The position numbers and the translations under genes were made by a program. The notes below the pieces were generated by a model. It made no database searches. It saw only the letters and a program-made list of their open reading frames with translations, and was not told the DNA's origin. Below, one piece after another: positions 958 to 30,150 of a stretch of DNA of 32,010 nucleotides (its first letter is position 1; every line of letters starts with the position of its first letter). Origin of the DNA: a virus; the IMG/VR virus record IMGVR_UViG_3300043294_000133, positions 1-32,010 of that record, one strand, 5' to 3'.

Positions 958-1364
958 GGGCGCCTACGTGTGAATGTCCTGATCGCGTGACAGTTGGCAC
1001 AGACGAGGTCACACTTCTCAATCTCGGACAGGAGGCGGCTCATAGAAACCTGTCCCCGAGAGACCTGAGAAGATATCACGAACTCCTTTTTGCCCCGCAC
1101 ATGATCGTACTGCATTACGTAGGGTGGGTATTGAATCCCACAGTCGGCACAGGGCTTGCCCGTCTTGAGCGATGCCGCGAAGGCCCTCATCTTGTTCCTG
1201 TGGGCGATGGTTTTTGCCGTCTCATAACCAGGGTGCAGCTCACGGTGGTGCCGTACCGAAGCGCGATGGCAGATGCGACATAGACGCCTGCCGGTTTTCG
1301 TCAGTACGAGGTTTTTCCCAGAGTATGGGTGGCCGCGCGGACAGTGCGTTTTCTTCACGCGCAT
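951..1364 (-). CDS. Free-standing HNH endonuclease, 137 aa
   Basis: The N-terminus carries a Cys-rich zinc module (HCPRGHPYSGKN, then CRICHRA). The C-terminus has the HNH core: CADCG, a YDHVRG segment supplying the first catalytic His, and CDLVCANCHAIRTFTRRR with the closing CxxCH. This is the layout of small phage HNH nucleases that cut DNA in a metal-dependent way and often act as homing endonucleases. The gene overlaps the upstream structural gene by 10 bp and the downstream one by 7 bp. Its DNA is visibly more AT-rich than its neighbours, consistent with recent arrival. Domain call is secure; homing is inferred. Confidence 0.85.
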   Translation of the reverse strand: MRVKKTHCPRGHPYSGKNLVLTKTGRRLCRICHRASVRHHRELHPGYETAKTIAHRNKMRAFAASLKTGKPCADCGIQYPPYVMQYDHVRGKKEFVISSQVSRGQVSMSRLLSEIEKCDLVCANCHAIRTFTRRRPC

Positions 1365-7847: not shown

Positions 7848-9419
7848 CTAGATGGGCCGCGCCTTCTTCCCCAGCCGGAAGCCGCCACCGATGGGCTCCG
7901 GCCCCATGACCGGCTGCCGGAGTTCGTGCGCCTGGATGGCGCGAGCTTCCCGTTGCGCTGCGTGGGCGCGAATCAGCGCGGGGTCCACGAACGCCCGGTC
8001 GGGTGCGACCGTCAGTACCTCGCCCTGGACGACCTGCCACATCCGGCTCGGATGCCCTGCCGCAGCCCGGTAGCGGGCGAGCAGATCGCGATTGGCGCGC
8101 GTCAAGGACATCGCGCCCAGCTCGCGCTTGCGCTCCGGGTGCCACAGGTGCAGCAGGCCGTACTTGAGGCGACGGTGCGGCCCGACCAGCGTGTCCAGCA
8201 CCAGGGCCAGGCACTCGTCTTCCGAGCCCCAGCCGACGAACTGCGGCGGGATACCGCCCGTCGCCAGGTAGGCGGCCCTTGAGACCACGACGCAGCCACC
8301 GCCCGCGAAGCCGCGGTAGGCGGGCCGCGCGAGCCCCAAGGTCGGCGTCGGGAGCGTCACCGTGGGCGCCTCGGCCAGCAGCTCGCCCGTCGTCTCCTGA
8401 TTGATGCGTCGGACCAGCGTGTGCGGCACCACCCACGGCGCCTGCCCGGACTCGACCAGTCGGACAGCTTCGAGGAACGCTTCGGGCGGGAGCGCGCAGT
8501 CCGCATCAAGGAGTACGAGCGTCCGGCCGCTCGCGTGCGTGAGTGCGTTGGCGACCGCCGCGCCCTTGCGCCACGGTGCCCCCGTCCAGCCTTCCACGAG
8601 CTGCCAGTCGGGGAACTGCGCTGCGAGCCGCCGCTTGAGCCATCCCCAGGCGACGGACCGCTCTGGCTGGTCGCCGTGCATCCGGGGGACGATGACCGTC
8701 ACCCCACGATCCCCGCGCTGCGCGGCCTGCAACTGGTACTCGGTGAGCGCGCGGGTGAAGTCGCTCGCGAGTCGGCGCACGTTGAAGACGCTATCGGCGT
8801 GCTGGCGGTAGAGGAAGCCGGGCCGCGCGGTGGCGACGAAGCGTGCTCCCTGCCGCGCGAAGTCGCGCCAGAGCGAGGTGTCCCATCCGCCCCGCTGGTC
8901 CTGCCGGTAGGGGGTGCGTTCCCAGAAGACGCGCCGGAAGGGGGAGACGCCGGAGCAGGGCGTGGGGTTCTCAAGCGCCGCCTTCCCGGCCGTGGACTTG
9001 TAGAGCTTCTCCCGCTGCGCCGGCCCGGCTCGGAGATCACCCATCCTGCGGTAGCCCAAGGCGATGACATCCGCCTCCGCCATCGCTCCAGCCACATCCT
9101 CCAGCATCGTCGGCAGGGCGAGGTCGTCCGCATCGAGATGCTGGACCCATTCAGTGTCCGCGAGGGCCACGGCGGCGTTGCGCAGCACGCCGAGGTTCGT
9201 CTCGCCCGGCAGCGAGCGGGTGAGCACCCGCAGTCCCGCCGCTTCGAGCATCGTCGTCGCGGCGGCGACCGCTCGCACGTCCTCGGGGTCGCCACCGTCC
9301 ACGATGCCGACCATCGCCGGCCGCAGCGTGAGGGCGACGAGTGATGCCCCCCAGTCGGCCAAATAGCGGCCGTAGCCACGCACACAGGTCACGATGGCGA
9401 GGTCGAGCGGTTCGCTCAC
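7848..9419 (-). CDS. Tandem-domain GT-A glycosyltransferase, 523 aa
   Basis: Two family-2-like glycosyltransferase domains lie in one chain. Domain 1 (residues ~5-235) has LAIVTCVRGYGRYL at the nucleotide-binding strand, NLGVLRNAAVALADTEWV, and the metal-binding LDADD at 95-99. Domain 2 (~240-450) has VTVIVPRMHG, KGAAVANALTHASGRT, LDADC at 304-308, and GWGSEDE near 397-402, whose acidic pair is typical of the catalytic-base position. Such enzymes transfer sugars from nucleotide-sugars. The gene overlaps the adjacent methyltransferase by 4 bp and sits between small genes and tail genes, suggesting glycan building on virion proteins or host surface. Acceptor and sugar cannot be told. Confidence 0.85.
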   Translation of the reverse strand: MSEPLDLAIVTCVRGYGRYLADWGASLVALTLRPAMVGIVDGGDPEDVRAVAAATTMLEAAGLRVLTRSLPGETNLGVLRNAAVALADTEWVQHLDADDLALPTMLEDVAGAMAEADVIALGYRRMGDLRAGPAQREKLYKSTAGKAALENPTPCSGVSPFRRVFWERTPYRQDQRGGWDTSLWRDFARQGARFVATARPGFLYRQHADSVFNVRRLASDFTRALTEYQLQAAQRGDRGVTVIVPRMHGDQPERSVAWGWLKRRLAAQFPDWQLVEGWTGAPWRKGAAVANALTHASGRTLVLLDADCALPPEAFLEAVRLVESGQAPWVVPHTLVRRINQETTGELLAEAPTVTLPTPTLGLARPAYRGFAGGGCVVVSRAAYLATGGIPPQFVGWGSEDECLALVLDTLVGPHRRLKYGLLHLWHPERKRELGAMSLTRANRDLLARYRAAAGHPSRMWQVVQGEVLTVAPDRAFVDPALIRAHAAQREARAIQAHELRQPVMGPEPIGGGFRLGKKARPI

Positions 9420-10036
9420 GGCAGGTCCGCCACGCGCCAGAGCCCGAGCGCCTTGTCGGCGTAGGCCCCACCGTTCTCCGTGCAGCCCTCCACGAGGACT
9501 CGTTGGGGCATCGGGAAACAGAAGGGAGGTTGCTGGAGGTTGAGGGGCCGCCAGCGACCCATCACCCCCTCCACGTTCCGCGCACGGCCGGGGAAGGTCG
9601 TGGTCAGGAGCCAGGTGATCGAGCTGCGCTTGATGTTGGCGAGCGCGCGATGAGCGTCAGCGAAGGGGAAGTGGACGAGACAGTCCCGGCACAGCAGGAG
9701 GTCGGCCGCAGGGAGCGGATCGGTAAGCAGGTCCAGGTGGCGGAACACCCGACCTTCACACCCGTAGTCCCGCTGGTTGGCAGCGATCATCTCTGGCACG
9801 ATGTCGCCCCCGATGTACTGCATCCCCGTGAGGTCCACGGTGCGCATCCAGTGGAAGTCGCCGCACGGCAGATCGAGCAGCGTCCGCACGCCGAGGCTGC
9901 GGAGCACCATCGGGAGCTGGGTCACCAGCGTCCGCGTCTGCTCCACACTCGAGCCCGGCCCCGACGCCGACTCCGTGCCGCCGAACCGCGAGCCCCGATA
10001 GATGTCGCCGAAGATGCGGGCCGCCTCACTTCGCAC
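9416..10036 (-). CDS. Class I SAM-dependent methyltransferase, 206 aa
   Basis: A GTG at 10036, six bases after GGAGGG, gives the start VRSEAARIFGDIYRG and overlaps the upstream gene by 11 bp. SAM-binding motif I is LDLPCGDF at 54-61, the acidic loop follows as GGDIV at 76-80, and LLLCRDCLVHFP matches the post-motif strand ending in the usual hydrophobic/His region. There is no DNA-methylase DPPY motif. Flanked by two glycosyltransferases, it most likely methylates a sugar or small glycan (O- or N-methylation), which commonly caps glycans; this is inference from context. Confidence 0.8.
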   Translation of the reverse strand: MRSEAARIFGDIYRGSRFGGTESASGPGSSVEQTRTLVTQLPMVLRSLGVRTLLDLPCGDFHWMRTVDLTGMQYIGGDIVPEMIAANQRDYGCEGRVFRHLDLLTDPLPAADLLLCRDCLVHFPFADAHRALANIKRSSITWLLTTTFPGRARNVEGVMGRWRPLNLQQPPFCFPMPQRVLVEGCTENGGAYADKALGLWRVADLP

Positions 10037-11486
10037 TGAAGACCCTCCAGCCGTGTTCCTGCGCCCAAGGCACGACGATGGCGTTCGCGCGCTTCCAGTC
10101 ATCGGCCTTCTCCGCCTTCCACGTCGCCGGATCCTCAGGCTTGTTCTGGTCTAGGATCCAGCCTTTCGGGTGCGGCGCCGCCCAGATGGGGATGCCTCGC
10201 TCTTGTGCCCACCGGGAAACCAGCGCCTCCTCGTCGTACTGGAAGTCGAAGTGCGCCGGCACGCCGAGCCGGGTATCCCACCCCATCACGCCCGAGCCCG
10301 GGTAGTTGATCCACCGGCCCTCGTTGAGCGGCAGGAAGAAGCCCACCACCGGTCCGACGATCTCGTTGACGTGCCGCGCCCGCGGGGCCACCACGCGACC
10401 GTGGAAGGTCACGATCGCCTGGCCTTTCCAGCGCCGCACCCACCGGCGCACCACCGCCTCGTAGTCAGGCGGGTAGACGATGTCGTCGTCGCAGGTCAGA
10501 TAGAGTCCGCCGTAGGTCTCGCTCCAGCGGAACTTCGCGCCCGCTCGGTCATCGTTCCCCGGCACACAGACCCACTCGTCGCCCAACTCCTTCACGATGT
10601 CGGGCGGCTCCGTGTAGCCGTTCAAGACCACGTGCAGCTTGGTGACCTGGGGACGGAGCGAGCGCAGCGTCCGCTCCAGCTTGGCGAGCCGCTCGGGCTG
10701 TGTGGCGATGGCCGCCAGTGTGCGCGGCCGAGCGACCTGCACCGCTGGGCCGTGGGGCAGCGGCGGCAACTTCGGTGGCGTGATGCCGTACTTCTTGTAG
10801 AACAGGGCGGCGTTCTCGCGCCGGTAGGGTTCCCAGCCCGCGGGACCGCCGTAGACGGCGTCGAACGTCGTGCGGTGGTGATGCAGGATCTCCACATCCC
10901 GACGCCGGGCGAGCTGCCAGCCAGCGGCTTGCGCACGTCGGCTGTAGTCGTCGTCATCCCCGAAGCCCATGCGGAACTCTTCCGAGAGATATCCTACCGT
11001 CACCAGGACTTCACGCCTGATAAGGACACAGAAGAACGGCAGCATACTCTTGTCTTTGAGCACGACGTAGCCTGGGCCGGGCTGCTCGCTGCGCGCTGCA
11101 TGGTCGGCAGGCGAGGACGAGCGCACGCCGACGAGTCCAACCTTCGGCTTCTCGTGCATCACGTCGAGCATCCGATCCAGCCAGTGCGGCACGACCTCTG
11201 TATCGTTGTTCAACAAAAGGATGAACGGCGCGGTGGACGCCGCGATACCCACGTTCGACGCCTTCACGAATCCGGTGTTCTCTTCGAGCGCCAGTGCGAG
11301 GTGCCGCAGGCCGGTCTCGGCGAACGCCTTCTCCACCGCGCTCCGCTCCTCTGGGGCGCTCCCGTTGTCTACCCAGATCACCCGAATGAGTGCGCGGTCG
11401 GTGTGCGCCGCCAGCGAGCGCAAACACGCGACAGTCATCGCACACTGGTTGAACGTGGGCAGAACGATGTCTACGATCGCCGTCAC
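10026..11486 (-). CDS. Two-domain glycosyltransferase (GT2 N-domain plus second GT-A domain), 486 aa
   Basis: The GTG at 11486 overlaps the preceding stop (GTGA). Residues 1-235 form a GT2 rhamnosyltransferase-like domain: IVLPTFNQ, VDNGS at 39-43, NTGFVKASNVG, the metal site NNDTEV at 93-98, GFGDDDDYSRRAQAAGW, and a late HHH. Residues ~255-486 form a second GT-A-like domain with TLAAIATQPERLAKLERTL at the start and CDDDIVYP at 332-335 as its metal site. The double-domain design parallels the gene at 7848-9419. It probably works with that enzyme and the SAM methyltransferase on a shared glycan. Confidence 0.85.
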   Translation of the reverse strand: MTAIVDIVLPTFNQCAMTVACLRSLAAHTDRALIRVIWVDNGSAPEERSAVEKAFAETGLRHLALALEENTGFVKASNVGIAASTAPFILLLNNDTEVVPHWLDRMLDVMHEKPKVGLVGVRSSSPADHAARSEQPGPGYVVLKDKSMLPFFCVLIRREVLVTVGYLSEEFRMGFGDDDDYSRRAQAAGWQLARRRDVEILHHHRTTFDAVYGGPAGWEPYRRENAALFYKKYGITPPKLPPLPHGPAVQVARPRTLAAIATQPERLAKLERTLRSLRPQVTKLHVVLNGYTEPPDIVKELGDEWVCVPGNDDRAGAKFRWSETYGGLYLTCDDDIVYPPDYEAVVRRWVRRWKGQAIVTFHGRVVAPRARHVNEIVGPVVGFFLPLNEGRWINYPGSGVMGWDTRLGVPAHFDFQYDEEALVSRWAQERGIPIWAAPHPKGWILDQNKPEDPATWKAEKADDWKRANAIVVPWAQEHGWRVFSAK

Positions 11487-13045: not shown

Positions 13046-13374
13046 CCTTCCTCCCCTTCGTTCTCCTGGCTGGACGCATTCTGTCGCTTCGTCTGCTTCG
13101 TCGGGTACGTTGCGCGTTCCCATGCGCGCAACAGTGCGCGGCCCGTCGGGCACAGCCGTTCTCGATCAGGGTTGTACCACTCGCTGAAGGTGCAGTAGGC
13201 GCCGGATGGCGCACACTCACGACAACTGCGGTGGTGCGCCAGATAGGCGTTGGCCGCTACGGTAATCTCCACCGCCGTGCCGGGAGTGACCTGGAACTGC
13301 CAGGGCGCGTGGCAGCGATGGGTGAGCGCCGCGCTTTGGCTAAGGTGTGGTAGGGTATCCATCTCGGTCCTCAT
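13039..13374 (-). CDS. Small Cys/His-rich protein, 111 aa
   Basis: The ATG at 13374 lies in a junction repeat also found near 13649, with the 4-base overlap ATGA. The middle holds HRCHAPWQFQ, HHRSCRECAPSGAYC and later LCPTG, a likely zinc-binding region. The C-terminal tail is charged and Lys/Glu-rich (PTKQTKRQNASSQENEG). Probably a zinc-stabilised small protein of unknown role. Confidence 0.6.
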   Translation of the reverse strand: MRTEMDTLPHLSQSAALTHRCHAPWQFQVTPGTAVEITVAANAYLAHHRSCRECAPSGAYCTFSEWYNPDRERLCPTGRALLRAWERATYPTKQTKRQNASSQENEGEEGC

Positions 13375-13391
13375 GGTGTCGGTGTCTCCCC
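13371..13391 (-). repeat. Junction repeat C, copy 1
   Basis: A 21-base sequence identical to 13646-13666. On the minus strand it encodes the gene end ETPTP-stop and the overlapping ATG of the following gene. Confidence 0.8.
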
Positions 13392-13649
13392 CGGCTTGAT
13401 CTGGGCCCGCAGTGCGCGCGGGCGCAGTCGCCACATAATACACCCAAAGTTCGGTTCAACCCGCAACCACGCTGCGTAGTTCTCTGCATCTAGCGCCATC
13501 GCAATGGTCCGACGGTGCCGCGGGCGGCCCCGATCTGTTGCCATCCGCCGGCACTCCAGTTCCGGCCAGTAATAGTCGGGGTCTTGGCGCGCCCACAAAC
13601 ACGTTCCGCAGCGGCGTAGCATCAAGCCGGGGATTGGAGTGTCCTTCAT
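13371..13649 (-). CDS. Small Cys-rich protein ending in GETPTP, 92 aa
   Basis: I prefer the ATG at 13649 because it sits in a copy of the same junction sequence that starts the next gene. The frame is also open back to a GTG at 13742, which would add 31 residues. Cys residues occur as RRCGTCLWAR and ELECRRM, then FGCIMWRL, a loose zinc-site pattern. The C-terminus IKPGETPTP is encoded by the repeated junction. Function unknown. Confidence 0.6.
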   Translation of the reverse strand: MKDTPIPGLMLRRCGTCLWARQDPDYYWPELECRRMATDRGRPRHRRTIAMALDAENYAAWLRVEPNFGCIMWRLRPRALRAQIKPGETPTP

Positions 13650-13666
13650 GGTGTCGGTGTCTCCCC
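13646..13666 (-). repeat. Junction repeat C, copy 2
   Basis: Identical to 13371-13391. Here the ATG starts the 92-aa gene, and the TGA is in frame with a probably frameshifted upstream mini-gene. Confidence 0.8.
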
Positions 13667-14283: not shown

Positions 14284-14528
14284 GGGATCACGCCGAAGAG
14301 GACAGCGCAGGAGCGGTGGAGTTTGAGATACCGGACCGGATCATCGCGGCGCGGATCGTCCTTCGTACCGTAGGTTACTGGGTCGCCGACGTCTGCCGTG
14401 ACCACCACCGGCTCCTCGGGCTCGATGACCACACCGCACGCGGAGCAGGCGTTCCCGTAGATCGGCACGGGGGAGTCGTACCGCGGCCCCTTGAGCACCG
14501 TGCGGTCGAGGATGCGCTGGCGGCTCAT
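14280..14528 (-). CDS. Small zinc-finger-like protein, 82 aa
   Basis: The ATG at 14528 overlaps the upstream stop (ATGA), preferred over an in-frame ATG 15 bases earlier. CSACGVVIEPEEPVVVTAD forms a CxxC knuckle, and LKLHRSCAVLFG supplies a His and a Cys that could complete a zinc site. It resembles PARP- or HNH-like zinc-ribbon fragments, but no catalytic residues are visible. Confidence 0.65.
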   Translation of the reverse strand: MSRQRILDRTVLKGPRYDSPVPIYGNACSACGVVIEPEEPVVVTADVGDPVTYGTKDDPRRDDPVRYLKLHRSCAVLFGVIP

Positions 14529-14878
14529 CGCTTGAGTCTCCACTTCACTACCTTGGTCGCGGGAGTGCGCTTCGTGGACTTTCGCGGTGTTGGCGCCGGC
14601 TCCTTCGGCTCCTCGGGAATCTTCGGGCGAGCGGGAAGCACCGTGAAGTCGAGGCTCTTGGCCGGCGCCTTCTTTCGCTTCTCCTTCGGCTGCGGGGCTT
14701 CCCGGGGTCGCCTGGGTGAGCCCGTACCCCAGAGCAGCCCCATGTCCGTCGTCGCCCCACAGGCCAAGCAGCGCGCGCGGAGGCTGTCGCCCTGCTTCAC
14801 CATGACCAGCTCACCGCCGCAGGAGGGGCAGGGCCGCAGCATCGGCGCAGGACGGAGACCCGTGCCAGCGTAGCCCAT
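14525..14878 (-). CDS. Zinc-ribbon protein with basic disordered tail, 117 aa
   Basis: The N-terminal 45 residues form a classic zinc ribbon: CPSCGGELVMVKQGDSLRAR followed by CLACGA. A long Lys/Pro/Arg-rich tail follows (EAPQPKEKRKKAPAKS to KVVKWRLKR), likely disordered and able to contact nucleic acid. The start at 14878 lies three bases after the upstream TGA. No catalytic domain, so a DNA- or protein-binding role is inferred. Confidence 0.65.
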   Translation of the reverse strand: MGYAGTGLRPAPMLRPCPSCGGELVMVKQGDSLRARCLACGATTDMGLLWGTGSPRRPREAPQPKEKRKKAPAKSLDFTVLPARPKIPEEPKEPAPTPRKSTKRTPATKVVKWRLKR

Positions 14879-19827: not shown

Positions 19828-20109
19828 TCACTTCCTCGCTTTCGTGTCGGGTGCCCGCGCCGGGGCCGCCCGCTTCGGTCGAGTGAAGGCCCGCAGCCCC
19901 GCCTCGAAGGCTGCGGCGAGCGCGTCGGTCGTGTGGTCAACTGAGCCGTCCACCTTCTTGATAGCGCAGCGCATCGCCTCCAATGCGGCTTCGTCCGGGC
20001 CGTCCTTCCGCCAACGCGCGAGCAACCGCGACGGCTCGGCGTGGTCAACCGCATCGCAGATGAGTGCGATACGGTCCCGCAGTTCCTTGTCTCGCTGTCT
20101 CTGGTTCAT
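19828..20109 (-). CDS. Helical small protein, 93 aa, with variant shared tail
   Basis: ATG at 20109 overlaps the upstream stop (ATGA) within the repeated junction. The body is helical (NQRQRDKELRDRIALICD, AALEAMRCAIKKVDGSV, TDALAAAFEAGLRAF). The C-terminus TRPKRAAPARAPDTKARK is a diverged version of the tail shared by neighbouring genes. Function unknown. Confidence 0.65.
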   Translation of the reverse strand: MNQRQRDKELRDRIALICDAVDHAEPSRLLARWRKDGPDEAALEAMRCAIKKVDGSVDHTTDALAAAFEAGLRAFTRPKRAAPARAPDTKARK

Positions 20110-20306
20110 GCCTTCGCTCCCTTCGTTTGGTCGGCCCGCGCCGGGGCGGACGCGCGGACCTTCCAGTGTTTGCGGAAGTATCGGTAGAACTGGTCCAACG
20201 ACATCTCGTCGCTCTGCTCGATCTGGCCGTAGCTGGGGCTGATGGCTGCGGCGTGGCCGCAGAACGGGCACCGCTTAAGCGCGGGCGCCCCCGCCGGCAG
20301 GGTCAC
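20106..20306 (-). CDS. CPFCG-type small protein, Lar-like N-terminus, 66 aa
   Basis: GTG at 20306 overlaps the upstream stop. The opening LKRCPFCGHAAAISPSYGQ matches the start of Lar-type restriction-alleviation zinc proteins, which have CPFCG near the N-terminus, but the second Cys pair is missing here. The C-terminus SAPARADQTKGAKA is a member of the shared-tail group. Lar relationship is tentative. Confidence 0.6.
   Translation of the reverse strand: MTLPAGAPALKRCPFCGHAAAISPSYGQIEQSDEMSLDQFYRYFRKHWKVRASAPARADQTKGAKA
20107..20127 (-). repeat. Junction repeat A, diverged copy 4
   Basis: The ribosome-site end (CATGCCTTCGCTCCCTTCGT on the plus strand) matches 20525-20545; the coding side has drifted (SAPARADQTKGAKA). 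Confidence 0.6.
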
Positions 20307-20527
20307 GACGCACGCTCCACGAACCGCATGAGGGAGCGGCGGGCCTGGAGCGTGTCGCCCGGCTCGTAGTCGGAGCCGCTCAGCTGCTTGGCCCGGCCCT
20401 TCACCACGCGCAGCGAGACGAACTCGGCATCCATGCTCGTGACTTCGGCGGTGAAGGCGCCCTTACGGCTATGCACCACCTCCCATGTCTCTCCCACCTT
20501 GGGCTCCGTGCCCTCATCAGGCTTCAT
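20303..20527 (-). CDS. Small beta-rich protein, 74 aa
   Basis: The ATG at 20527 overlaps the upstream stop (ATGA) inside junction repeat A. The content is a compact beta fold (PKVGETWEVVHSRKGAFTAE, EFVSLRVVKGRAK, EPGDTLQARRSLMRFVER), of the kind seen in SH3-like or PemK-like barrels. No catalytic motif seen. Confidence 0.65.
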   Translation of the reverse strand: MKPDEGTEPKVGETWEVVHSRKGAFTAEVTSMDAEFVSLRVVKGRAKQLSGSDYEPGDTLQARRSLMRFVERAS

Positions 20528-20733
20528 GCCTTCGCTCCCTTCGTGGTGTGCGGCGTCGGGCCAGCCGACGACGCGCGGGCCAGTGTTGCGTGCAACTTGT
20601 CCAGCGCGGCCCGCAGGGGTGCCGAGCGGTAGATGCCGTAGTCGTCGAAGCCACGCCCCGTTTCCGCGAAGTGCAGGAGCGCCCGCTTCTCGGCGGCCGT
20701 GAGTCGCAGGGCCAGCGCGCATCTGGCGTTCAC
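20524..20733 (-). CDS. Small protein with shared C-terminal tail, 69 aa
   Basis: GTG at 20733 follows junction repeat B (ribosome site GGGGGGAGGACGG). The body is a helical LTAAEKRALLHFAETGRG, FDDYGIYRSAPLRAALDKL, with spacing like small phage helical proteins. It ends in ARASSAGPTPHTTKGAKA, the fullest form of the shared tail. Function unknown. Confidence 0.65.
   Translation of the reverse strand: MNARCALALRLTAAEKRALLHFAETGRGFDDYGIYRSAPLRAALDKLHATLARASSAGPTPHTTKGAKA
20532..20577 (-). repeat. Junction repeat A, copy 1
   Basis: A 46-base sequence identical to 21294-21339. On the minus strand it encodes the tail ASSAGPTPHTTKGA and carries GAAGGGAGCGA near the next start. The unrelated gene bodies begin immediately outside. 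Confidence 0.85.
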
Positions 20734-21104
20734 CGTTCCGTCCTCCCCCCTGGGCGCGCCGTGTCCGCCGCCGCGCCGCGACGGGCCGAGAGGGCGCGAC
20801 CGACCTCAAGCCCCTCGCCGTAGAGATCGGGTGCGACCGCAGCAGCGACGGCCATGCCGATGCGGCGGTCCACCTCCTTCTCGGGCTCGCTCAATCCTTC
20901 CCACTGGACAAGCCACGAGTCCTTGATGGCAGGCTGTTCGCGCGCCCAGGAAATCCACGCGCTGCGCACTACCTGACCGAGCTGATCGCGTAGAACCTCG
21001 CGCGCCTCTGGCGCGCCATCCCGCCGCGCGATGCAATCGGCTATCGCCGCGCCGATGGGCAGCGCGTTCGCGCCGTCGCGGGCGCCGCCCGCCGGAGGCG
21101 TCAC
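20730..21104 (-). CDS. Hypothetical protein, 124 aa, tail type B
   Basis: GTG at 21104, coupled at both ends. The central helical region reads AIADCIARRDGAPEAREVLR, then WISWAREQPAIKDSWLVQW and LSEPEKEVDRRIGMAVAAA. It ends ADTARPGGRTER, related to the ends of the genes at 22229 and 21477. Function unknown. Confidence 0.65.
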   Translation of the reverse strand: MTPPAGGARDGANALPIGAAIADCIARRDGAPEAREVLRDQLGQVVRSAWISWAREQPAIKDSWLVQWEGLSEPEKEVDRRIGMAVAAAVAPDLYGEGLEVGRALSARRGAAADTARPGGRTER

Positions 21105-21289
21105 CGGGACGGCCGCGCGAGACGAACAATCTTCGTACCCGGGGCCCGGCTTGCGCCGAGCACCTTGCTGATGCCAAGCAGCACGGCCTCCCGCTGCACG
21201 TCGGTCAGCTTCGCCAGATGCGCGGCGTCCATCACGATAGAGACGTTCACTTGCACGCCCTCGCGCGGCAATCCGAGGCTAACGTTCAC
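21101..21289 (-). CDS. Small protein, 62 aa
   Basis: GTG at 21289 overlaps the upstream stop inside junction repeat A. The sequence is a short beta part (VNVSIVMDAAHLAKLTD) and a helix (VQREAVLLGISKVLGA) with a basic end (GTKIVRLARPSR). No domain recognised. Confidence 0.6.
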   Translation of the reverse strand: MNVSLGLPREGVQVNVSIVMDAAHLAKLTDVQREAVLLGISKVLGASRAPGTKIVRLARPSR

Positions 21290-21480
21290 GTCCTCGCTCC
21301 CTTCGTGGTGTGCGGCGTCGGGCCAGCCGACGACGCGCGACGCGGCGCGGACACGACGGGGCGACGCTGGGCCGTCACAAGGTCGATGATCTGTTCGGCC
21401 GCAAGCTCGCGATCGTAGAAGCCTTCCTCGAAGGCGACGATGATCTTGCAGACCGCCTTGACGAGCTGAAGTCGTCTCAT
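21286..21480 (-). CDS. Small helical protein with shared C-terminal tail, 64 aa
   Basis: ATG at 21480 sits directly after the GGGGGGAGGACGG ribosome site of junction repeat B. Helical body: RLQLVKAVCKIIVAFEEGF, DRELAAEQIIDLVTAQ. The C-terminus RRASSAGPTPHTTKGART is nearly identical to that of the gene at 20524-20733 although the bodies are unrelated. Function unknown. Confidence 0.65.
   Translation of the reverse strand: MRRLQLVKAVCKIIVAFEEGFYDRELAAEQIIDLVTAQRRPVVSAPRRASSAGPTPHTTKGART
21294..21339 (-). repeat. Junction repeat A, copy 2
   Basis: Identical over 46 bases to 20532-20577. It encodes the end of the 64-aa gene and the ribosome site of the 62-aa gene. Confidence 0.85.
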
Positions 21481-21557
21481 GCCGTCCTCCCCCCTGGGCG
21501 CGGGCCGCCGCGCGACACGCTCACGCCGGAATAATCGAGTTGCTGGCCCGATGTCAC
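21477..21557 (-). CDS. Micro-ORF, 26 aa, remnant of shared-tail gene
   Basis: GTG at 21557 directly follows the upstream TAA and its TGA overlaps the next ATG (ATGA). The peptide QQLDYSGVSVSRGGPRPG, then GRTA, resembles a shortened copy of the C-terminus of the gene at 22229-22480 (LDYRVVRV to SRGGPRPGGRTAR). It looks like a partial duplicate captured with junction repeat B. Translation unproven. Confidence 0.4.
   Translation of the reverse strand: MTSGQQLDYSGVSVSRGGPRPGGRTA
21482..21525 (-). repeat. Junction repeat B, copy 1
   Basis: Nearly identical to 22234-22277. The minus strand encodes SRGGPRPGGRTA and provides GGGGGGAGGACGG as ribosome site for the next gene. Confidence 0.8.
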
Positions 21558-21794
21558 TTACGCCTCTTCGCCCGGCTCACCTGAGCCGAGCGTGTACTTC
21601 GCCACTGTGGCACCGTTCGCGTTCATCACATAGACGGAGCCCGACCCGCCGAAGTGCATCGGGTCGCCCCCGTGCTCGCGTGTGGCGTAGACTCCGTGCG
21701 TGCCCGGCGGGTTCTGCGCGGGCACCGCCCACACCTCTGATACCTCGTAGACCTGCTCATGTCTGTTCGGCTCAACCAGCTTGACGGTCAACAT
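21558..21794 (-). CDS. Small beta-rich protein, 78 aa
   Basis: The ATG at 21794 has a near-perfect ribosome site, AAGGAGGAGCAG, and is preferred over a longer upstream start. Sequence: MLTVKLVEPNRHEQVYEVSE, then WAVPAQNPPGTHGVYATRE and SVYVMNANGATVAKYTLG, an all-beta domain resembling small phage proteins of the MLTVK-VEPxxHExVxE type. Function unknown. Confidence 0.7.
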   Translation of the reverse strand: MLTVKLVEPNRHEQVYEVSEVWAVPAQNPPGTHGVYATREHGGDPMHFGGSGSVYVMNANGATVAKYTLGSGEPGEEA

Positions 21795-21848
21795 CTGCTC
21801 CTCCTTCGTCGTGGTTCTTCTTCGTGGTCGGGCCAGCAACCCAACCCT

Positions 21849-22232
21849 TCAATCCTTGGTGGGCGGCGTCGGGCCAGCCGACGACGCGCGGGCCTTCTCT
21901 AACGCCGGTGTGATGACCCGGAGAACCTTGGCGCGGTAGCCTGTGACCATCCCCACGCCGCACCACCGCTCTAGTTCTTCGAGCGCGGCAAGCATCGCTA
22001 GGAAACAGTCTGCGCGACGGTTGTCCTCCCGGTCCCGCGCGAATGACGCCTCTAGTTGCTGCCACTTTCGCTCGCGTTCGGCTGTGCGCGCCGCGTCCCG
22101 TTTCTTGACAGCGTCAGGGTCGTGCTGCCAGCAATACCACTTCCCGCCACGCTCCACCGTGCCGGGGCGCTGGCACGCCCAATTCGTGACGCGCTCGCCG
22201 AACACCCTCGCCGAACATTGGCGTTCGTTCAC
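21849..22232 (-). CDS. Small zinc/coiled-coil protein with shared tail, 127 aa
   Basis: GTG at 22232 overlaps the upstream stop and follows junction repeat B. The N-terminus has a Cys/His cluster (QCSARVFGERVTNWACQRPG and WYCWQHDPD), a probable zinc knuckle as in many short phage proteins. A charged helix follows (KKRDAARTAERERKWQQLEA) and the end is ARASSAGPTPPTKD, a truncated form of the shared tail. Function unknown. Confidence 0.65.
   Translation of the reverse strand: MNERQCSARVFGERVTNWACQRPGTVERGGKWYCWQHDPDAVKKRDAARTAERERKWQQLEASFARDREDNRRADCFLAMLAALEELERWCGVGMVTGYRAKVLRVITPALEKARASSAGPTPPTKD
21863..21890 (-). repeat. Junction repeat A, copy 3 (partial)
   Basis: A 28-base match to the inner part of copies 1 and 2, encoding RASSAGPTP of the 127-aa gene. 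A degenerate second piece (TGGCCCGAC ... CACGAAG) follows at about 21800-21838 on the minus strand, as if the repeat were partly duplicated. Confidence 0.7.
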
Positions 22233-22480
22233 CGTGCCGTCCTCCCCCCTGGGCGCGGGCCGCCGCGCGAGATGCTCACGCGCTCGCTCACTCGGACGCG
22301 GACCACGCGGTAGTCGAGTGTGCCCCTGATGTACGACCACGCCTCGCCGCGTTGCTCCTCAATCGCCTTCACCGCCTCGCTACGCTCGCCGCGCACGGTG
22401 CCGTCAATCAGCCACCTACGGCCACGGCCGTCGGCCTCAGAGACCACAGCGTAGCAGAAGGCGTACATTCGCGGCCTCAC
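22229..22480 (-). CDS. Small protein, 83 aa, tail type B
   Basis: GTG at 22480 overlaps the upstream stop, though an ATG at 22468 (MYAFCYAVV) is an alternative start. Beta/helix mix: YAFCYAVVSEADGRGRRWLI, AVKAIEEQRGEAWSYIRG, LDYRVVRVRVSERVS. The C-terminus ISRGGPRPGGRTAR is the type B tail. Function unknown. Confidence 0.65.
   Translation of the reverse strand: MRPRMYAFCYAVVSEADGRGRRWLIDGTVRGERSEAVKAIEEQRGEAWSYIRGTLDYRVVRVRVSERVSISRGGPRPGGRTAR
22234..22277 (-). repeat. Junction repeat B, copy 2
   Basis: Differs from copy 1 by one or two bases around the distal end (GATGCTCACG versus CACGCTCACG on the plus strand). A shorter third copy is at 20736-20762 (TCCGTCCTCCCCCCTGGGCG), ending the 124-aa gene. 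Confidence 0.8.
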
Positions 22481-23022
22481 CCTCCGCGCTCCGGCCCCGC
22501 CCCGGCCCCGATTGATGCCTGCGCGAGCGCCAGCACGTCCCCGTCCGCCGCGTGCTCCAAGAGCCAGCGGGCGTCATCGGGGTGCGCCTCCAGGAACCGG
22601 AGGGCGTGCGCCTTGGCGAGCTGGAGGGGATCCAAGTCGCGCTTGGCGAAGAACTCGGGGTCGTCCTCCTGCCAGCGGTGGAGCAGGTCACAGAGCGGTG
22701 CCGCCACACCGAAATCTCCGTGCCATGCCCCGCGGGTCCCCGTGATGTGCGCCCACTGGACGACCACCTGCCAGGGACCGCCCTGGTAGTCGTGCACCTC
22801 TCCCGTTCGCCAGCCGGTCACACAACAGGCGCTGTCCTGTGTGAAGCGCCGGAAGCGCGCGACGATCGCGAGGGCCTCGGTGACCACGGATTCCTCGTCG
22901 TGCAGCGAGAGCCCCAGGCTCGCTAGCCGACGGACCGCTTCGCGCTTCGGCAGGCGACCGACCGCCTGCTTCGAGAGCCGGGTACGGCGCTGGAGGGGAC
23001 GGGACTTCAGGCGGCGCATCAT
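22477..23022 (-). CDS. DUF968-like HNH-fold protein, 181 aa
   Basis: I chose the ATG at 23022 because AAGGGGTGAAGGG precedes it; a GTG at 23049 has none. After a basic N-terminus (KSRPLQRRTRLSKQAVG) come CCVTGWRTGE, VVQWAHITGTRGAWHGDFG and AAPLCDLLHRWQEDDPEF. This is the spacing of DUF968/NinB-neighbour HNH-type domains, with Cys pair, a central His and PLCxxLHR. These are linked to phage recombination or replication modules as probable nucleases. Catalytic competence cannot be judged here. Confidence 0.65.
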   Translation of the reverse strand: MMRRLKSRPLQRRTRLSKQAVGRLPKREAVRRLASLGLSLHDEESVVTEALAIVARFRRFTQDSACCVTGWRTGEVHDYQGGPWQVVVQWAHITGTRGAWHGDFGVAAPLCDLLHRWQEDDPEFFAKRDLDPLQLAKAHALRFLEAHPDDARWLLEHAADGDVLALAQASIGAGAGPERGG

Positions 23023-25289: not shown

Positions 25290-25648
25290 GCCGACCGTCG
25301 CTTCCGGCGCTCAATCTTGTCGAGCAGGTGGGGATGCCGCGCCACGAGGTCATCCGCGATGAGGGCCGTCCACCTGTTATCAATCTCGGCGTGCAGATGG
25401 TCGGCGCGGCGCGCCTGCTCGGCCAAGTACTTCGCGCTGATGCGCAGCTCGCCGCGGGCCGCGAGATCCAGCGCCGTGGCCTCCATGTACCGCCAGGCCC
25501 GCCAGCCGTCGTCGCTGCCCTTCCAGGCCGCGTAGCGGGTGCGCACCGTCTCCTTGGGGCCGAACTTGCCGACATCCGTGGTGGGGCCGCTGGGGGGCTC
25601 AGGCGGCTCCGTGAAGAGATCGTAGTCGGGACGGACGGGGGCGCTCAC
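25286..25648 (-). CDS. Hypothetical protein, 120 aa
   Basis: The GTG at 25648 overlaps the methyltransferase stop (GTGA), which selects it over a longer frame. After a Pro-rich N-terminus (YDLFTEPPEPPSGPTT) it is helical: RTRYAAWKGSDDGWRAWRY, ATALDLAARGELRISAKYL, DLVARHPHLLDKIERRKRR. It resembles small phage HTH-like proteins found next to replication genes, but no assignment is possible. Confidence 0.6.
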   Translation of the reverse strand: MSAPVRPDYDLFTEPPEPPSGPTTDVGKFGPKETVRTRYAAWKGSDDGWRAWRYMEATALDLAARGELRISAKYLAEQARRADHLHAEIDNRWTALIADDLVARHPHLLDKIERRKRRSA

Positions 25649-27588
25649 GGGGTCTCCCAGAGCGAGCGTTGCTGGCGGGCGTGGGCGATCCTCTTGCGGG
25701 CGATCTCGACGTACTCCGCCTCGCGCTCGATGCCGAGGAAGTCGAAGCCTTCCAGCGCGCAGGCGATGCCTGTGGTGCCGCTGCCTGTGAACGGATCCAA
25801 GACCAGGCCGCCAGCCGGTGTCACGAGCCGCACGAGCCAGCGCATCAGCGCCACGGGCTTGACGGTCGGGTGGTGGTTGCGCGCGGCGCGGTGCGTGTTC
25901 GGGGATTGGAACGAGCCGGGGTTCTGGGTGCCCGCGCTCCACAGCATCGGCGACTCCGGCCCGCTCAGCCCCGCCTCGCGTTCGGCGCGGGACGCCTTCG
26001 CGCAGTAGAAGAACCGCGAGGCCCCGCCGACGTCGAGCCCGCGCGCCGGTTCGCACTCGCGCTGGCCCGCGAAGTCACCGTAGGTCGTCGCGAACTTGTT
26101 GGAACCGCGTCGTTCTGGATTCGCCCCACTCACCAGCGTACCGCTCTGTGCATCGAGCGCGGCAGCGGCTTCTTCGTCCAGCACGACGTTCGCGGGCCAG
26201 CGACCGAGCGGCGACACACGGTCTGCGACGGTGCCCGGTTCGTTGTCGGGAACCTGCGAGCGCCTATCGTGTGGCTTCGCGTCGCGCCCACTCGCCAGCC
26301 AGCCGGGACCACGCCCCGGCTCGTTCGCGTAGTCAGCCGGAATCCGGCACCCATCCACGTTGAGCGCGCCCGTCCCGTGCGCCGCGACGTTCGCCGCTAC
26401 CGTGTCCACCAGCGGCTTGCGGGCCAGAATGATAGGCTCCCACGCGGGCTTGAGCGCCGTACCTAGGCCGCGAGGGATACGCGGTTTGCCGCACCGACCA
26501 CAAACCGGCCATGCTCCGCGAGTTTGTGGCTCCGGTTGTCCGGCCACAATTCGAGGTTCCCCCGCTCGTTGTTCAGTGGGGCGTGGTCGCGGTGATGGAC
26601 TACCTCCGTCCTGAGTAGCGGTCGGCCGACCCACTCGGCCATCACCAGACGGTGCTCCATCACGTAGCCGTCCTTCCGAGCCATCGTGATCGCCCAGAGG
26701 GGACACCGAACGTACCGGACGATCTGATAGTTGCCTCTGCGGTGCCGGTAGGTGACGCCGCCCTTCCACGCCGGGTTGCGTTCCCCTCGCATCTTCGCTC
26801 GGTAACTGGCGAGGCTCTCCGCCGTCCAGGCCGCGCGCCCCTTGTGAGAGTGCGGTGTCAGCCCCTTGATCCGCCGCTTCCCGTTGCAACTCCTTGAGCA
26901 GGTCGGCTCCTTCACGCGGCGCAGGGTCCGCGGGGCCGTCTGGAACGGCACTCCGCACTCGGCGCACCGAATCGTCACAGGCACAGAAGTCTCCGGTCTT
27001 GTCGAGATTGTGGCTCTTGGGAAACCCGCTGCCGTACATGAACATCAGGCAGTCGCGGATCTCCCAGCCAGCGTCCTCGATGCCCGCAGCCAGCCGGTGA
27101 ACGGTCCTTGTGCCACCGAATGCCAGCAGATGCGCGCCTGGCTTCGCCACGCGCAACGCTTCTGCGGCCCACGCCCGATGCCACTCCTGCATTGCCGGGA
27201 GGTGTCGCTTCACGCGCTCGAAAGACGGCTTGCCGCCGTCCGCGAAGCCACCGATGTTGCCAGGCTTCGGCACAGCGGAAGCCCGGAGCGACCGCCCCTT
27301 CACATACCAGTCGGGAGCGGGACACTCGCACTTCTTCTTGCCACGCAGCCGCCCACCGCACGTCTTGCAGGTGGGGTTGTATCCCTCGAACTCGTCGCCG
27401 GAAATGTTGGGCCACGAGGTTGAGCGCTCACCGATCCCTGGCTTCGAGAAGCCACCGTCGAGCCGGTCCCAGTCGCGTCCCATAAACTCCAGTCCGTAGG
27501 GTGGGTCGCACACGACGGCGCTCACGCTGTCCGCTTCCATGCCGCGCATCACGTCAAGGCAGTCGCCGGGCACGACATCGCTCCTCAT
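25645..27588 (-). CDS. Phage DNA methyltransferase (beta class), 647 aa, carrying an HNH-bearing insertion
   Basis: The ATG at 27588 overlaps the upstream stop (ATGA). The target-site motif DPPY is at residues 28-31 and the SAM site DPFTGSGTTG at 598-607. This IV-before-I order marks a beta-class N4-cytosine or N6-adenine methylase, as in antirestriction phage enzymes. Conserved text includes FGGTRTVHRLAAGIEDAGWE, FMYGSGFPKSHNL, GTALKPAWEPIILARKPL and NHHPTVKPVALMRWL. Between residues ~205 and ~360 the frame reads low-complexity Pro/Arg/Gly/Asp text, which is the alternate-frame shadow of a nested HNH gene. Cys202-x-Cys204 and Cys363-x-x-Cys366 flank it and may have been one zinc loop. Whether the interrupted enzyme still folds is unknown. 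Confidence 0.85.
   Translation of the reverse strand: MRSDVVPGDCLDVMRGMEADSVSAVVCDPPYGLEFMGRDWDRLDGGFSKPGIGERSTSWPNISGDEFEGYNPTCKTCGGRLRGKKKCECPAPDWYVKGRSLRASAVPKPGNIGGFADGGKPSFERVKRHLPAMQEWHRAWAAEALRVAKPGAHLLAFGGTRTVHRLAAGIEDAGWEIRDCLMFMYGSGFPKSHNLDKTGDFCACDDSVRRVRSAVPDGPADPAPREGADLLKELQREAADQGADTALSQGARGLDGGEPRQLPSEDARGTQPGVEGRRHLPAPQRQLSDRPVRSVSPLGDHDGSEGRLRDGAPSGDGRVGRPTATQDGGSPSPRPRPTEQRAGEPRIVAGQPEPQTRGAWPVCGRCGKPRIPRGLGTALKPAWEPIILARKPLVDTVAANVAAHGTGALNVDGCRIPADYANEPGRGPGWLASGRDAKPHDRRSQVPDNEPGTVADRVSPLGRWPANVVLDEEAAAALDAQSGTLVSGANPERRGSNKFATTYGDFAGQRECEPARGLDVGGASRFFYCAKASRAEREAGLSGPESPMLWSAGTQNPGSFQSPNTHRAARNHHPTVKPVALMRWLVRLVTPAGGLVLDPFTGSGTTGIACALEGFDFLGIEREAEYVEIARKRIAHARQQRSLWETP
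26463..26984 (-). CDS. HNH endonuclease nested in the methyltransferase gene, 173 aa
   Basis: GTG at 26984 is preceded by GGAGA six bases away. The N-terminal zinc finger is CAECGVPFQTAPRTLRRV with CSRSCNGKR. The nuclease core is GYVMEHRLVMAEWVGRPLL, EVVHHRDHAPLNNERGNLEL and a closing HKLAEHGRFVV, with the HH pair, Asn and Glu of the HNH_3 type. The frame is +1 relative to the methyltransferase, and the gene is exactly 522 bases including its stop, so the host frame stays open. This is best read as a homing-type endonuclease inserted in a host gene without an intron or intein. Confidence 0.85.
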   Translation of the reverse strand: MPVTIRCAECGVPFQTAPRTLRRVKEPTCSRSCNGKRRIKGLTPHSHKGRAAWTAESLASYRAKMRGERNPAWKGGVTYRHRRGNYQIVRYVRCPLWAITMARKDGYVMEHRLVMAEWVGRPLLRTEVVHHRDHAPLNNERGNLELWPDNRSHKLAEHGRFVVGAANRVSLAA

Positions 27589-27917
27589 CGTCCCTCGAAT
27601 GCCCGTGACCGCAGGTGGGCGGCACAATGCGCGTGAAGCGCCAGCGGCTCTTTGCCTGCCTCTACCAGCGCTCGGCACTTCGCGCACACTCCCTCCACCG
27701 CTGAGGGCTCCAGCTCCACCGGAGGCCCCTGGCGCTCGGGCAGGATCGCCGCCCGCTTGGTGATGAAGAAGGGCCGCATCCCCGCCGTGCCTTCGGGTTT
27801 GCCGCGATGCCCACCCTCATGGGCTGGCCCGGCAGAGGGTCGGTGACCAGCCCCGCTCGAGGGTGTTCCTTTCGCCGCGAGGGCCGCGGCGCGTTCCATC
27901 GGGTGTTTCGTTCTCAC
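27585..27917 (-). CDS. Small Cys/His protein, 110 aa
   Basis: GTG at 27917; the upstream gene's tail supplies AGGA eight bases before. The N-terminal half is low complexity (Gly/Pro/Ala/His), so an internal ATG at MRPFFITKRAAILPERQG may be the real start. The C-terminus VCAKCRALVEAG with HAHCAAHLRSRAFE suggests a CxxC...HxxC zinc site. It is coupled to the methyltransferase (ATGA). Function unknown. Confidence 0.55.
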   Translation of the reverse strand: MRTKHPMERAAALAAKGTPSSGAGHRPSAGPAHEGGHRGKPEGTAGMRPFFITKRAAILPERQGPPVELEPSAVEGVCAKCRALVEAGKEPLALHAHCAAHLRSRAFEGR

Positions 27918-28505: not shown

Positions 28506-29177
28506 TCAGTCCAGCACGCCCGCAAGGGCGGCCGTCAGGTTCTCAGTGGCCGGCGCACTCTGCACCGGCACGACGCCCTTCTTCCGCAGGTCCTCGCGGG
28601 CCACCAGCATCCGACCCACGAACTCCCCGACGACTTCGGCCAGCGTCTTGATGAACGCATCGTCGCGCTGGAAGCGCAGCAGCACGGGCGGGAGTGTCGG
28701 ATGGTAACTCAGGAAGTCCCACCACTTCCGGCCGGTGATCCACAGCGCCCCTTGCACCTGGCAGCGGTACTGGGCCGGGTCGTCGTCCAGCAGGTAGCCG
28801 ATGTGCACGGCGGCCGAGGGACACTTGATCTCGCAGCCGTCGTCGTCCCCGACGAGCAGGTCGGGCGAGCAGCCGACGAGCCGGTCGTCCCGCAGGATGA
28901 TGCCGGGCCGCACAGGATCGCAGTCCCGCTCCAGCGCGTAGTAGCCGATCGCCGCCTTCTCCAGTTCCGTGCCCCGCTGCATAAACTGCGTCACGTCCTC
29001 GTCCACGTTGACACCGAGGCACCATTCGGCGAGGAGCTGGAGCAGATACTTCTGGGAGCCAGCCAGCGGCTTCCCGGTGAAGGGAGAGAGGATGTCCTTG
29101 AAGCGGGACGCGGTGGGGATGCCGCGCCGAGCTTCGAGCCACTCAGGCGAGCCCTGAGCCATCGTGAGTTCGATCAC
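28506..29177 (-). CDS. YqaJ-type viral recombinase exonuclease, 223 aa
   Basis: GTG at 29177 overlaps the annealing-protein stop (GTGA). It carries the YqaJ/lambda-exo opening MAQGSPEWLEARRGIPTASR, RGTELEKAAIGYY with acidic residues at 71 and 73, then D106 in CSPDLLV and E116-I-K118 in GCEIKCPSA, the PD-(D/E)XK core, and YRCQVQGALWITGRKWWDF with the conserved Gln. It digests one strand of dsDNA ends and pairs with the adjacent ERF protein in single-strand annealing recombination. Length is normal. A longer N-terminal frame is a shadow of the upstream gene. Confidence 0.9.
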   Translation of the reverse strand: MIELTMAQGSPEWLEARRGIPTASRFKDILSPFTGKPLAGSQKYLLQLLAEWCLGVNVDEDVTQFMQRGTELEKAAIGYYALERDCDPVRPGIILRDDRLVGCSPDLLVGDDDGCEIKCPSAAVHIGYLLDDDPAQYRCQVQGALWITGRKWWDFLSYHPTLPPVLLRFQRDDAFIKTLAEVVGEFVGRMLVAREDLRKKGVVPVQSAPATENLTAALAGVLD

Positions 29178-30055
29178 TTGGCCACTCCGCTCTGGCCGCG
29201 CTTCGCCTCGAGCGTGTGGACGAGGGCCGGATACCGGGCCGCAGGGATGTCCTCCAGCTTCTCGACCATCGCGGCGCGCAGGATGCGCTCCGTCTTCACA
29301 CCCACCTCTTCGGCCAGCGAGATGAGGTCCGTCACCTGCTGCTCCGTGATCTTCTCCTGGTCGTCCTGCTCGCCATCCGTGTCCGGCTCTGCCGTGACCA
29401 ACCCAAAGGCTTGGATGATCGTGTACCGCTCCCCGAAGGTCAGGGCGCCGGCTGGCTTCTGCTGGTCGCTCATGCCTGGGTTGCTGTTCTCGACCGGGCA
29501 GGTGAACGACGCAGAGCGGCTGTACCCGTCCCGATGCAGGACGGTGCAGGTGGTCGTCAACTTCCCCGCCTCGATGGTGTTGCTCCACGAGTAGGAGAGC
29601 CCGAGGTCGCCGCAGATCGGGTTGATGACGGCCTGGATGTCCTTCAGCTCGGCATGGCGGTAGTGGATCCGCACGCCGGACTTCGTGACGTAGTCCACCA
29701 GCTTGCCCTTGTCGATGGCAGGGCAGCGCTTGGTGAACTCGCTCATCGCCGCGGCGAAGGTGCGCCGTGCCTCGGCGTCACGCTCCTCATTCCGCATCTG
29801 GATCAACTGCTTCAGCTTCTCGATGTCGAGGTCCTTGTCGATGGCGAGCCGCAGGAGCGGGTCGTCCTGATGGCGCACCAGCGCGACACGGGGGCGAGGC
29901 GGACGCGCCGTCGAGTCCTGACGGCACCGCTCGCAGAGATCGCCGTCGTCGGACGTGCGGTTCGGCGGGAGCTTGGCACCGCAGCCCCAGCAGAACACGG
30001 CCGTCAGTACTTCGGCTTCGATCTGGGGACTTCTCGGCTTGGCTGACGTACCCAT
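29174..30055 (-). CDS. ERF-family single-strand annealing protein with N-terminal zinc ribbon, 293 aa
   Basis: The ATG at 30055 is my start choice (GAAGAGG upstream); GTG 30133 is a longer alternative. Residues 22-44 form a zinc ribbon, CWGCG with later CERC. Following a charged linker and helix, the ERF core reads SEFTKRCPAIDKGK, RIHYRHAELKDIQAVINPIC, GLSYSWSN, LTTTCTVLHRDGYSRS and GALTFGERYTIIQAFGLV, matching P22 Erf-type annealing proteins. It anneals complementary ssDNA. The ribbon may assist DNA or partner binding, an uncommon fusion in my experience. It overlaps the exonuclease gene by 4 bases. Confidence 0.85.
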   Translation of the reverse strand: MGTSAKPRSPQIEAEVLTAVFCWGCGAKLPPNRTSDDGDLCERCRQDSTARPPRPRVALVRHQDDPLLRLAIDKDLDIEKLKQLIQMRNEERDAEARRTFAAAMSEFTKRCPAIDKGKLVDYVTKSGVRIHYRHAELKDIQAVINPICGDLGLSYSWSNTIEAGKLTTTCTVLHRDGYSRSASFTCPVENSNPGMSDQQKPAGALTFGERYTIIQAFGLVTAEPDTDGEQDDQEKITEQQVTDLISLAEEVGVKTERILRAAMVEKLEDIPAARYPALVHTLEAKRGQSGVAK

Positions 30056-30150
30056 CGGGGAACCATCCTCTTCAACCCTTCGGATCAGCCCGGGCAGCGC
30101 GGGGTCGATACGCCGATGCCCAGGAGGCCGCACAGAAGCGGCGAGCGAAC

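Follow-up and report, generated by a model that had tools for sequence, protein, structure and literature searches.

Organization of the gene array and its junctions

The window (the whole stretch of DNA analysed, 32,010 nucleotides of an uncultured phage, IMG/VR record IMGVR_UViG_3300043294_000133) carries an array of ten small genes and one 26-codon remnant on the minus strand, at about 19.8-22.5 kb, with replication and recombination genes on one side and terminase genes on the other. The genes are joined by two families of repeated sequence, here called seams A and B. Each seam comprises the C-terminal codons of the upstream gene, a Shine-Dalgarno sequence, and the overlapping stop and start codons. 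The slot between a B copy and an A copy (B-X-A) is filled by three unrelated gene bodies, g3, g5, and g8; g3 and g8 also have in common the start GTGAACG, beyond their preceding B copies. The features are listed in Table 1.

Table 1. Genes, seam copies, and recombinase gene of the window; L005 is a related metagenomic contig.
Feature	Position	Strand	Description
g1	22477..23022	-	181 aa; precedes the array; no family assigned
g2	22229..22468	-	79 aa; type B tail at end, ...SISRGGPRPGGRTAR
g3	21849..22232	-	127 aa; B-X-A slot body; truncated A tail ASSAGPTPPTKD at end
g4	21558..21794	-	78 aa; match to phrog_3909 (unknown function); no shared tail
Remnant mini-ORF	21477..21554	-	26 codons counting GTG at 21555-21557; B tail
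g5	21286..21480	-	64 aa; B-X-A slot body; full A tail
g6	21101..21289	-	62 aa
g7	20730..21104	-	124 aa; B-like tail ARPGGRTER at end
g8	20524..20733	-	69 aa; B-X-A slot body; full A tail
g9	20303..20527	-	74 aa; missing in L005
g10	20106..20306	-	66 aa; CPFCG zinc-ribbon-like start; A-like tail RADQTKGAKA; missing in L005
g11	19828..20109	-	93 aa; decayed A-like tail ARAPDTKARK
Seam A, g8/g9 (reference)	20523..20577	-	
Seam A, g5/g6	21285..21339	-	46 nt identical to g8/g9 copy
Seam A, g3 end	21857..21894	-	only the upstream half (tail) present; 32-nt identity with g8/g9 copy
Seam A, into g4 start	21786..21853	-	possible second decayed copy (GCTGGCCCGACCACGAAG...); weak alignment
Seam A, g10/g11	20105..20126	-	ribosome-site half; 22 nt identical to 20523-20544; L005 junction site
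Seam B copy 1, g2/g3	22235..22281	-	tail codons and GGGGGGAGG Shine-Dalgarno; abuts g3 start
Seam B copy 2, remnant/g5	21480..21526	-	36-nt identity with copy 1
Seam B copy 3, g7/g8	20736..20782	-	identical 21-nt core at 20738-20758
Seam C, downstream copy	13371..13391	-	21 nt identical; tail GETPTP-stop and stop/start overlap
Seam C, upstream copy	13646..13666	-	21 nt identical; tail GETPTP-stop
Erf-family single-strand annealing recombinase	29174..30133	-	PF04404, 50.9 bits (cut-off 25); phrog_155, E 4.6e-28

The tail ASSAGPTPHTTKGA(K/R) closes g8 and g5; it is truncated in g3 and diverged in g10, and a weaker relative is found in g11. The second tail, PGGRT(A/E), closes g2, g7, and the ORF with its stop at 21477. 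All the shared tails listed in the initial annotation were recovered at g8, g5, g3, g10, g2, g7, and the 21477 ORF. The last of these had been taken for the end of a normal gene and turned out to be the remnant, which resembles the C-terminus of g2 only and looks like a gene whose body is gone while its tail and seam were retained. The longest exact A match measured 46 nt (20532-20577 versus 21294-21339), exactly as first noted. The description of type B copies as differing by a base or two was accurate for those at 21480 and 22235, with a longest exact match of 36 nt and 96% identity over 47, but not for the copy at 20736, which has only the 21-nt core in common with the others and 66% identity over 47. 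The junctions had been described as a gene end plus the next ribosome site and start. Every copy does span or abut an overlap of stop and start, always in one and the same frame of the upstream gene, with the exception of the g3 tail, which has lost the ribosome-site half.

Significance and nature of the repeats

The repeats are real and far exceed what chance produces: in 300 dinucleotide shuffles of the array region the longest exact repeat averaged 12.3 nt and never exceeded 19, whereas the observed one measures 46 nt. Self-comparison of the window, which had been proposed as a check, placed every exact repeat of at least 20 nt in A, B, or a third seam, C, missed in the earlier sequence reading, whose two copies bracket one gene (13371-13649). 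A candidate seam D, at the starts 15718 and 15933 (81% over 36 nt), was discarded after the start-region test failed to set it apart. The automatic choice of genes in this test missed some array starts, so the A seams are understated, and they were probably hit by one of the null draws. As controls we used 11 loci, each from a different annotated phage record. Setting aside the 27-nt repeats in L012, none of them carried several seam-type repeats like the window; besides simple repeats, they contained one large tandem duplication (L015) and, in NrS-1 (L018), a single gene start repeated over 51 nt.

Finding one peptide, in a constant frame, on different proteins could point to functional protein tags for binding, localisation, or degradation. 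We consider this highly improbable, given that the identity is at the DNA level, with no synonymous differences, and runs on through the stop and the ribosome site, and that the tail is cut short in g3, has diverged in g10, and stands without a body at 21477. Many synonymous differences between tails had been proposed as the mark of a conserved protein function; this pattern was not found, the 46 nt being identical, and the tails would have no protein function.

The Shine-Dalgarno sequence and the start codon overlapping the stop are also what would be expected of a translation-initiation element, kept for coupled re-initiation, similar to the start-associated sequences (SASs) of cluster K mycobacteriophages. 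This seems very unlikely to us, since some 45 nt of upstream coding sequence belong to the conserved stretch, two unrelated seam sequences occupy the same position, adjacent junctions without seams look normal, and the predicted RNA structure was no better than that of shuffles (z -0.2 to +2.2), a result on which an RNA element in general was also rejected. SASs are 13-bp GGGATAGGAGCCC-like repeats located 3-7 bp before starts, in 11-19 copies and mostly in gaps over 50 bp, with a proposed role in translation (PMC3203893). They resemble the seams in repeating a Shine-Dalgarno core just upstream of the starts of unrelated genes, but have no coding tail, whereas the seams are long, partly coding, different in sequence, and situated in tightly overlapping gene junctions. 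The parallel with SASs drawn initially is therefore weak, and the phages Island3 and Brujita, discussed below, are a better one.

Outside the seams, the gene bodies showed no DNA-level similarity to one another, and at the protein level there was no match better than E 1e-3 outside the tails; whole-gene duplication, or any shared whole-gene ancestry of the bodies, was rejected accordingly. A passive origin of the seams was also considered, by tandem duplication of B-gene-A-gene units (~750 bp each) or by rare insertions of cassettes carrying a neighbour's end, with no selected role and with deletions between seams being ordinary recombination between any short repeats. The spacing is consistent with it (B copies 744 and 755 bp apart, two A copies 762 bp apart), and so are the lack of such a sequence in most start regions of the window and the decaying copies at 20736, 21857, 20105, and 19827. 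However, a duplicated unit predicts similar bodies while the seams are 95-100% identical, and the bodies are dissimilar; moreover, the two seam families alternate and the third is 7 kb away. We regard such a by-product as unlikely.

A related contig without two of the genes

Scans of the viral-contig collection returned no relative of the array beyond L005, a single 4.2-kb metagenomic contig (sample 3300009621) that is near-identical to the window. Its positions 1-215 correspond to window 20737-20523 and its positions 194-4127 to window 20126-16193, with one mismatch in 3.9 kb (99.975% identity). Genes g9 and g10 are missing, and the join is inside the 22-bp identity common to the flanking A seams, with the g8 tail and the g11 start retained. 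Judging from these alignments, L005 probably represents a deletion of two genes between seams, and the single mismatch makes the loss look recent.

The main caveat is an error of metagenome assembly at the 22-bp repeat, which would leave the repeats real and the deletion unobserved; we regard it as somewhat unlikely. Its basis is that the left end of the contig (window 20737) abuts the B repeat at 20738-20758 while the interior join is itself a repeat, so that both lie at seam edges, where short-k assembly can fail, and that one contig alone supports the join. Against it, a mis-join would require that 418 bp went unsampled between two segments that are otherwise continuous. In its last 97 bases L005 holds a divergent homologue of the gene that comes next in the window, and the join lies directly behind the stop codon; with this different allele at its far end, L005 is not simply the genome of the window and looks like a genuine mosaic variant.

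A swap, that is, a different body between the same seams, was not seen; L005 is the only variant contig. In the viral contigs there were no relatives of g1, g3, or g7 and no copy of seam B; the phage collection held no relatives of g3, g4, g7, g9, or g10, and the genome contigs none of TerL. A more distant relative carrying the seams was likewise absent from the collections searched. Two matches to a seam pattern in bacterial genomes were discarded: the one in a Rhizobacter MAG (L008) proved fortuitous, lying within a long coding gene of the bacterium, and at the one in Halovivax (L009) only the 22-nt pattern itself is common.

Proposed seam recombination and known systems

The initial annotation had proposed that the junctions act as recombination seams. 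The probable deletion in L005 inside the 22-bp A identity and the three unrelated bodies in B-X-A slots support this in part, the swapping being the element for which no case was observed. We consider it fairly probable that the small genes are cassettes bounded by short homologous seams, and that recombination removes, duplicates, or replaces the content between them. The array would be a region of non-essential genes of a tailed phage, and each seam a junction module in which a tolerant hydrophilic C-terminal extension is followed by the Shine-Dalgarno sequence and the overlapping stop/start. Two seam copies would recombine, within one genome or between co-infecting phages, with removal, duplication, or replacement of the intervening DNA, and each event would leave the upstream gene end intact and the next gene with a working start. 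Both the truncated A copy at 21857 and the remnant of 26 codons at 21477 have the appearance of scars that earlier events left behind.

The likeliest route would be single-strand annealing by the phage's own Erf, a candidate enzyme, although the L005 deletion could instead have been mediated by RecA or replication slippage. In recombining repeats, both identical and 78%-identical ones, the Erf of phage D3 plus its exonuclease equalled lambda Red in efficiency (PMC3945230). We infer that bodies are swapped in, not just lost. A stronger version, in which the independent seam families A, B, and C are selected as a cassette platform whose high identity lets an annealing recombinase add, drop, or swap one-gene cassettes while restoring the translation of the neighbour, integron-like without a site-specific recombinase, appears quite unlikely. 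Integron cassettes are small unrelated ORFs in an array, with a repeated element at each 3′ end, as in the present array. A true integron cassette array was rejected: no RYYYAAC core (attC) was found in the array, no tyrosine integrase among the proteins scanned, and no excess folding in the seams.

Recombination of this type has precedents in Island3/Brujita, in lambdoid boundary sequences, and in T4 PeSLs; here the seams are multi-copy and belong to alternating families. In the cluster I mycobacteriophages Island3 and Brujita, genes 67 and 68 have their 3′ ends in common (Pope et al. 2011, PMC3029335). When re-read here, their sequences had the same geometry as the array seams, at one seam: adjacent unrelated genes with the same C-terminal residues and the same DNA through the stop/start, and a close relative with one recombinant copy that lacks the gene between. 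The array reproduces both features, with unrelated neighbours having near-identical 3′ end and stop/start sequence and, if L005 is correctly assembled, a relative with a single recombinant copy and without the genes between. Island3/Brujita has one imperfect copy pair in a known phage pair, whereas our phage has three seam families, with several copies each, alternating.

Most mosaic junctions of phages have no recognisable homology, for which reason illegitimate recombination is favoured as their origin (PMC3029335). The array is a case where homology remains visible, in many copies. The seams would explain C-terminal tails common to unrelated proteins and offer a concrete route for phages to trade small accessory genes with the neighbours unbroken; the data suggest that they allow clean deletion or exchange of genes, for which there are already reports from a few phages.

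As summarised in PMC3029335, lambdoid boundary sequences are short and conserved, lie at gene boundaries, and have been put forward as places where modules are exchanged by homologous recombination (Clark et al. 2001; Susskind and Botstein 1978). They were compared between phages, whereas the array seams are repeated within one genome and include the coding tail. The PeSLs of T4-like phages, as presented in PMC4503421, are repeated intergenic promoter-stem-loop modules thought to shuffle small genes (Arbiol 2010, Comeau 2014). A PeSL combines a promoter and a terminator stem-loop, while the seams combine a coding tail and a ribosome site, with fold energies no better than those of shuffles. 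The placement of the array, with replication/recombination genes on one flank and terminase genes on the other, resembles that of the nin region in lambdoid phages.

Anatomy of the seams

The window record (IMG/VR, 32,010 bp, 67% GC) carries an array of small genes whose order along the transcribed strand is g2-B-g3-A-g4-remnant-B-g5-A-g6-g7-B-g8-A-g9-g10-A'-g11, where A and B are seams, families of near-identical DNA at the gene junctions. Third-position GC was 0.77-0.89 in the array genes, in agreement with 0.87 in the clear genes of the terminase (TerL) and the annealing recombinase (Erf), and they therefore look truly coding. The initial annotation was right that unrelated genes share C-terminal tails, all found as described, and that two A junctions are identical over 46 nt, which was exact between g8/g9 and g5/g6; the observation as a whole was confirmed, with corrections. 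Exact identity with the g8/g9 junction extends over 32 nt at the g3 end and 22 nt at g10/g11, while in seam B the g2/g3 and remnant/g5 copies share 36 nt and the g7/g8 copy 21 nt. The longest chance repeat in the array region had a mean of 12.3 and a maximum of 19 (300 dinucleotide shuffles), and in the self-comparison of the window every exact repeat of at least 20 nt fell in seams A, B or C. Each seam combines a coding tail, whose frame is constant, with a Shine-Dalgarno (GGGAGCG or GGGGGGAGG) and a stop and start that overlap or abut, except for the g3 tail, in which the ribosome-site half is lost.

Features of the window by position
Feature	Position	Strand	Remarks
All genes treated here	window	minus	
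Ten small genes (g2-g11) and one remnant	~19.8-22.5 kb	minus	almost all abut or overlap
Remnant ORF	stop at 21477		26 codons
g10	20106-20306		Lar-like start
Second Lar-like protein	14525-14878		
Seam C (GGGGAGACACCGACACCATGA)	13371-13391 and 13646-13666		21 nt identical; outside array
Gene flanked by seam C copies	13371-13649		
Similar starts of neighbouring genes	15718 and 15933	minus	
Two glycosyltransferase genes	7848-11486		downstream of terminase genes
DNA methyltransferase	25645-27687		680 aa

Seam C, absent from the initial annotation, has a coding tail GETPTP and an ATGA stop/start overlap; its upstream copy lies in an ORF with no obvious start codon, which is like a scar. The two similar starts (DNA 81% alike over 36 nt; VTDIPLR and VTNIPLR) are a possible further seam, with a similarity not beyond chance in the start-region test.

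Unrelated bodies between shared ends

The position preceded by seam B and followed by seam A holds three genes, g3, g5 and g8, and no relatedness of their bodies was found by protein or DNA comparison. Simple tandem duplication, suggested by seam spacings of 744-762 bp, would have left related bodies, and none was seen. Across the array proteins, any similarity beyond the tails amounted to weak matches (E 0.03 at best); the g10/g11 match (E 0.001) extends into the A-like tails of both. Considering its length and that it resembles nothing but the g2 end, the remnant looks like what is left of a gene after loss of the body, with the seam preserved. A role of the tails as protein tags fits poorly, since the identity is at the DNA level and runs on beyond the stop, and some tails are truncated or lack a body. 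Six seam copies were folded and gave z-scores from -0.2 to +2.2, thus no sign of conserved RNA structure; neither an attC core nor, among the proteins scanned, an integrase was found, and integron cassettes were discarded. The two Lar-like proteins have CPxCG zinc-ribbon starts (weak matches, both under the Pfam cut-off) and possibly act in restriction alleviation.

A probable deletion at a seam

The search with TerL gave a single near-identical contig, L005 (IMGVR_UViG_3300009621_000144, 4224 bp), which aligns with window 20737-20523 and then directly with 20126-16193, 99.975% identical with the sole mismatch at 19361. The only stretch contained in both of its segments is the 22 bp common to the g8/g9 and g10/g11 seams, and consequently g9 and g10 are missing while g8 keeps a complete tail and g11 its own start. 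An assembly error is somewhat unlikely: the join is a 22-bp repeat and the contig starts one base past the B repeat, but at its far end (4128-4224, against window 16193 and below) it switches, immediately past a stop codon, to DNA homologous to the next gene of the window but divergent from it (VGGPLDGQS vs VGGPRDGQS), so that L005 is probably a real mosaic variant and not a broken copy. This switch is a second mosaic junction at a gene boundary within a stretch otherwise 99.97% identical.

The proposal that seams are recombination sites for cassettes thus stands in part, with one probable deletion; evidence of exchange is indirect, and no swap, a different body between the same seams, was observed. 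Besides L005, no further relatives appeared among viral contigs, the phage collection and genome contigs, and two pattern matches to a seam in bacterial genomes were due to chance. Another near-identical contig (L007, 3300038417), covering the Erf end only, confirms the same phage in another sample; its positions 1-94 reach 94 bp past the high-coordinate end of the window, where the genome is therefore incomplete.

Mechanism and precedents

Recombination between seam copies would delete or exchange the intervening DNA, and after each event the end of one gene and the start of the next would again be functional. Among the genes of the phage is one for an annealing protein of the Erf family (PF04404, 50.9 bits, cut-off 25; also phrog_155), which may be the enzyme acting on the seams; when Erf and the exonuclease of phage D3 were used together, repeats that were identical or 78% identical recombined with an efficiency equal to that of lambda Red (PMC3945230). 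The closest known case is that of Island3 genes 67 and 68, with ~60 bp common at their 3' ends, of which Brujita has one recombinant copy (PMC3029335); in our comparison of the three ends, the upstream part of Brujita matches gene 67 and the downstream part gene 68. The same work connects these shared ends with boundary sequences proposed for lambdoid phages, and the seam array is a multi-copy version of this known type of phage recombination. The parallel drawn earlier with the start-associated sequences of cluster K is weak, as they differ from the seams in length, position and proposed role (PMC3203893). No comparable multi-copy set was found in 11 control loci from annotated phages, a small and unsystematic sample.

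Elsewhere in the window, ~170-180 charged, low-complexity residues part the conserved regions of the methyltransferase, and the two glycosyltransferase genes are unusual in a short phage genome.
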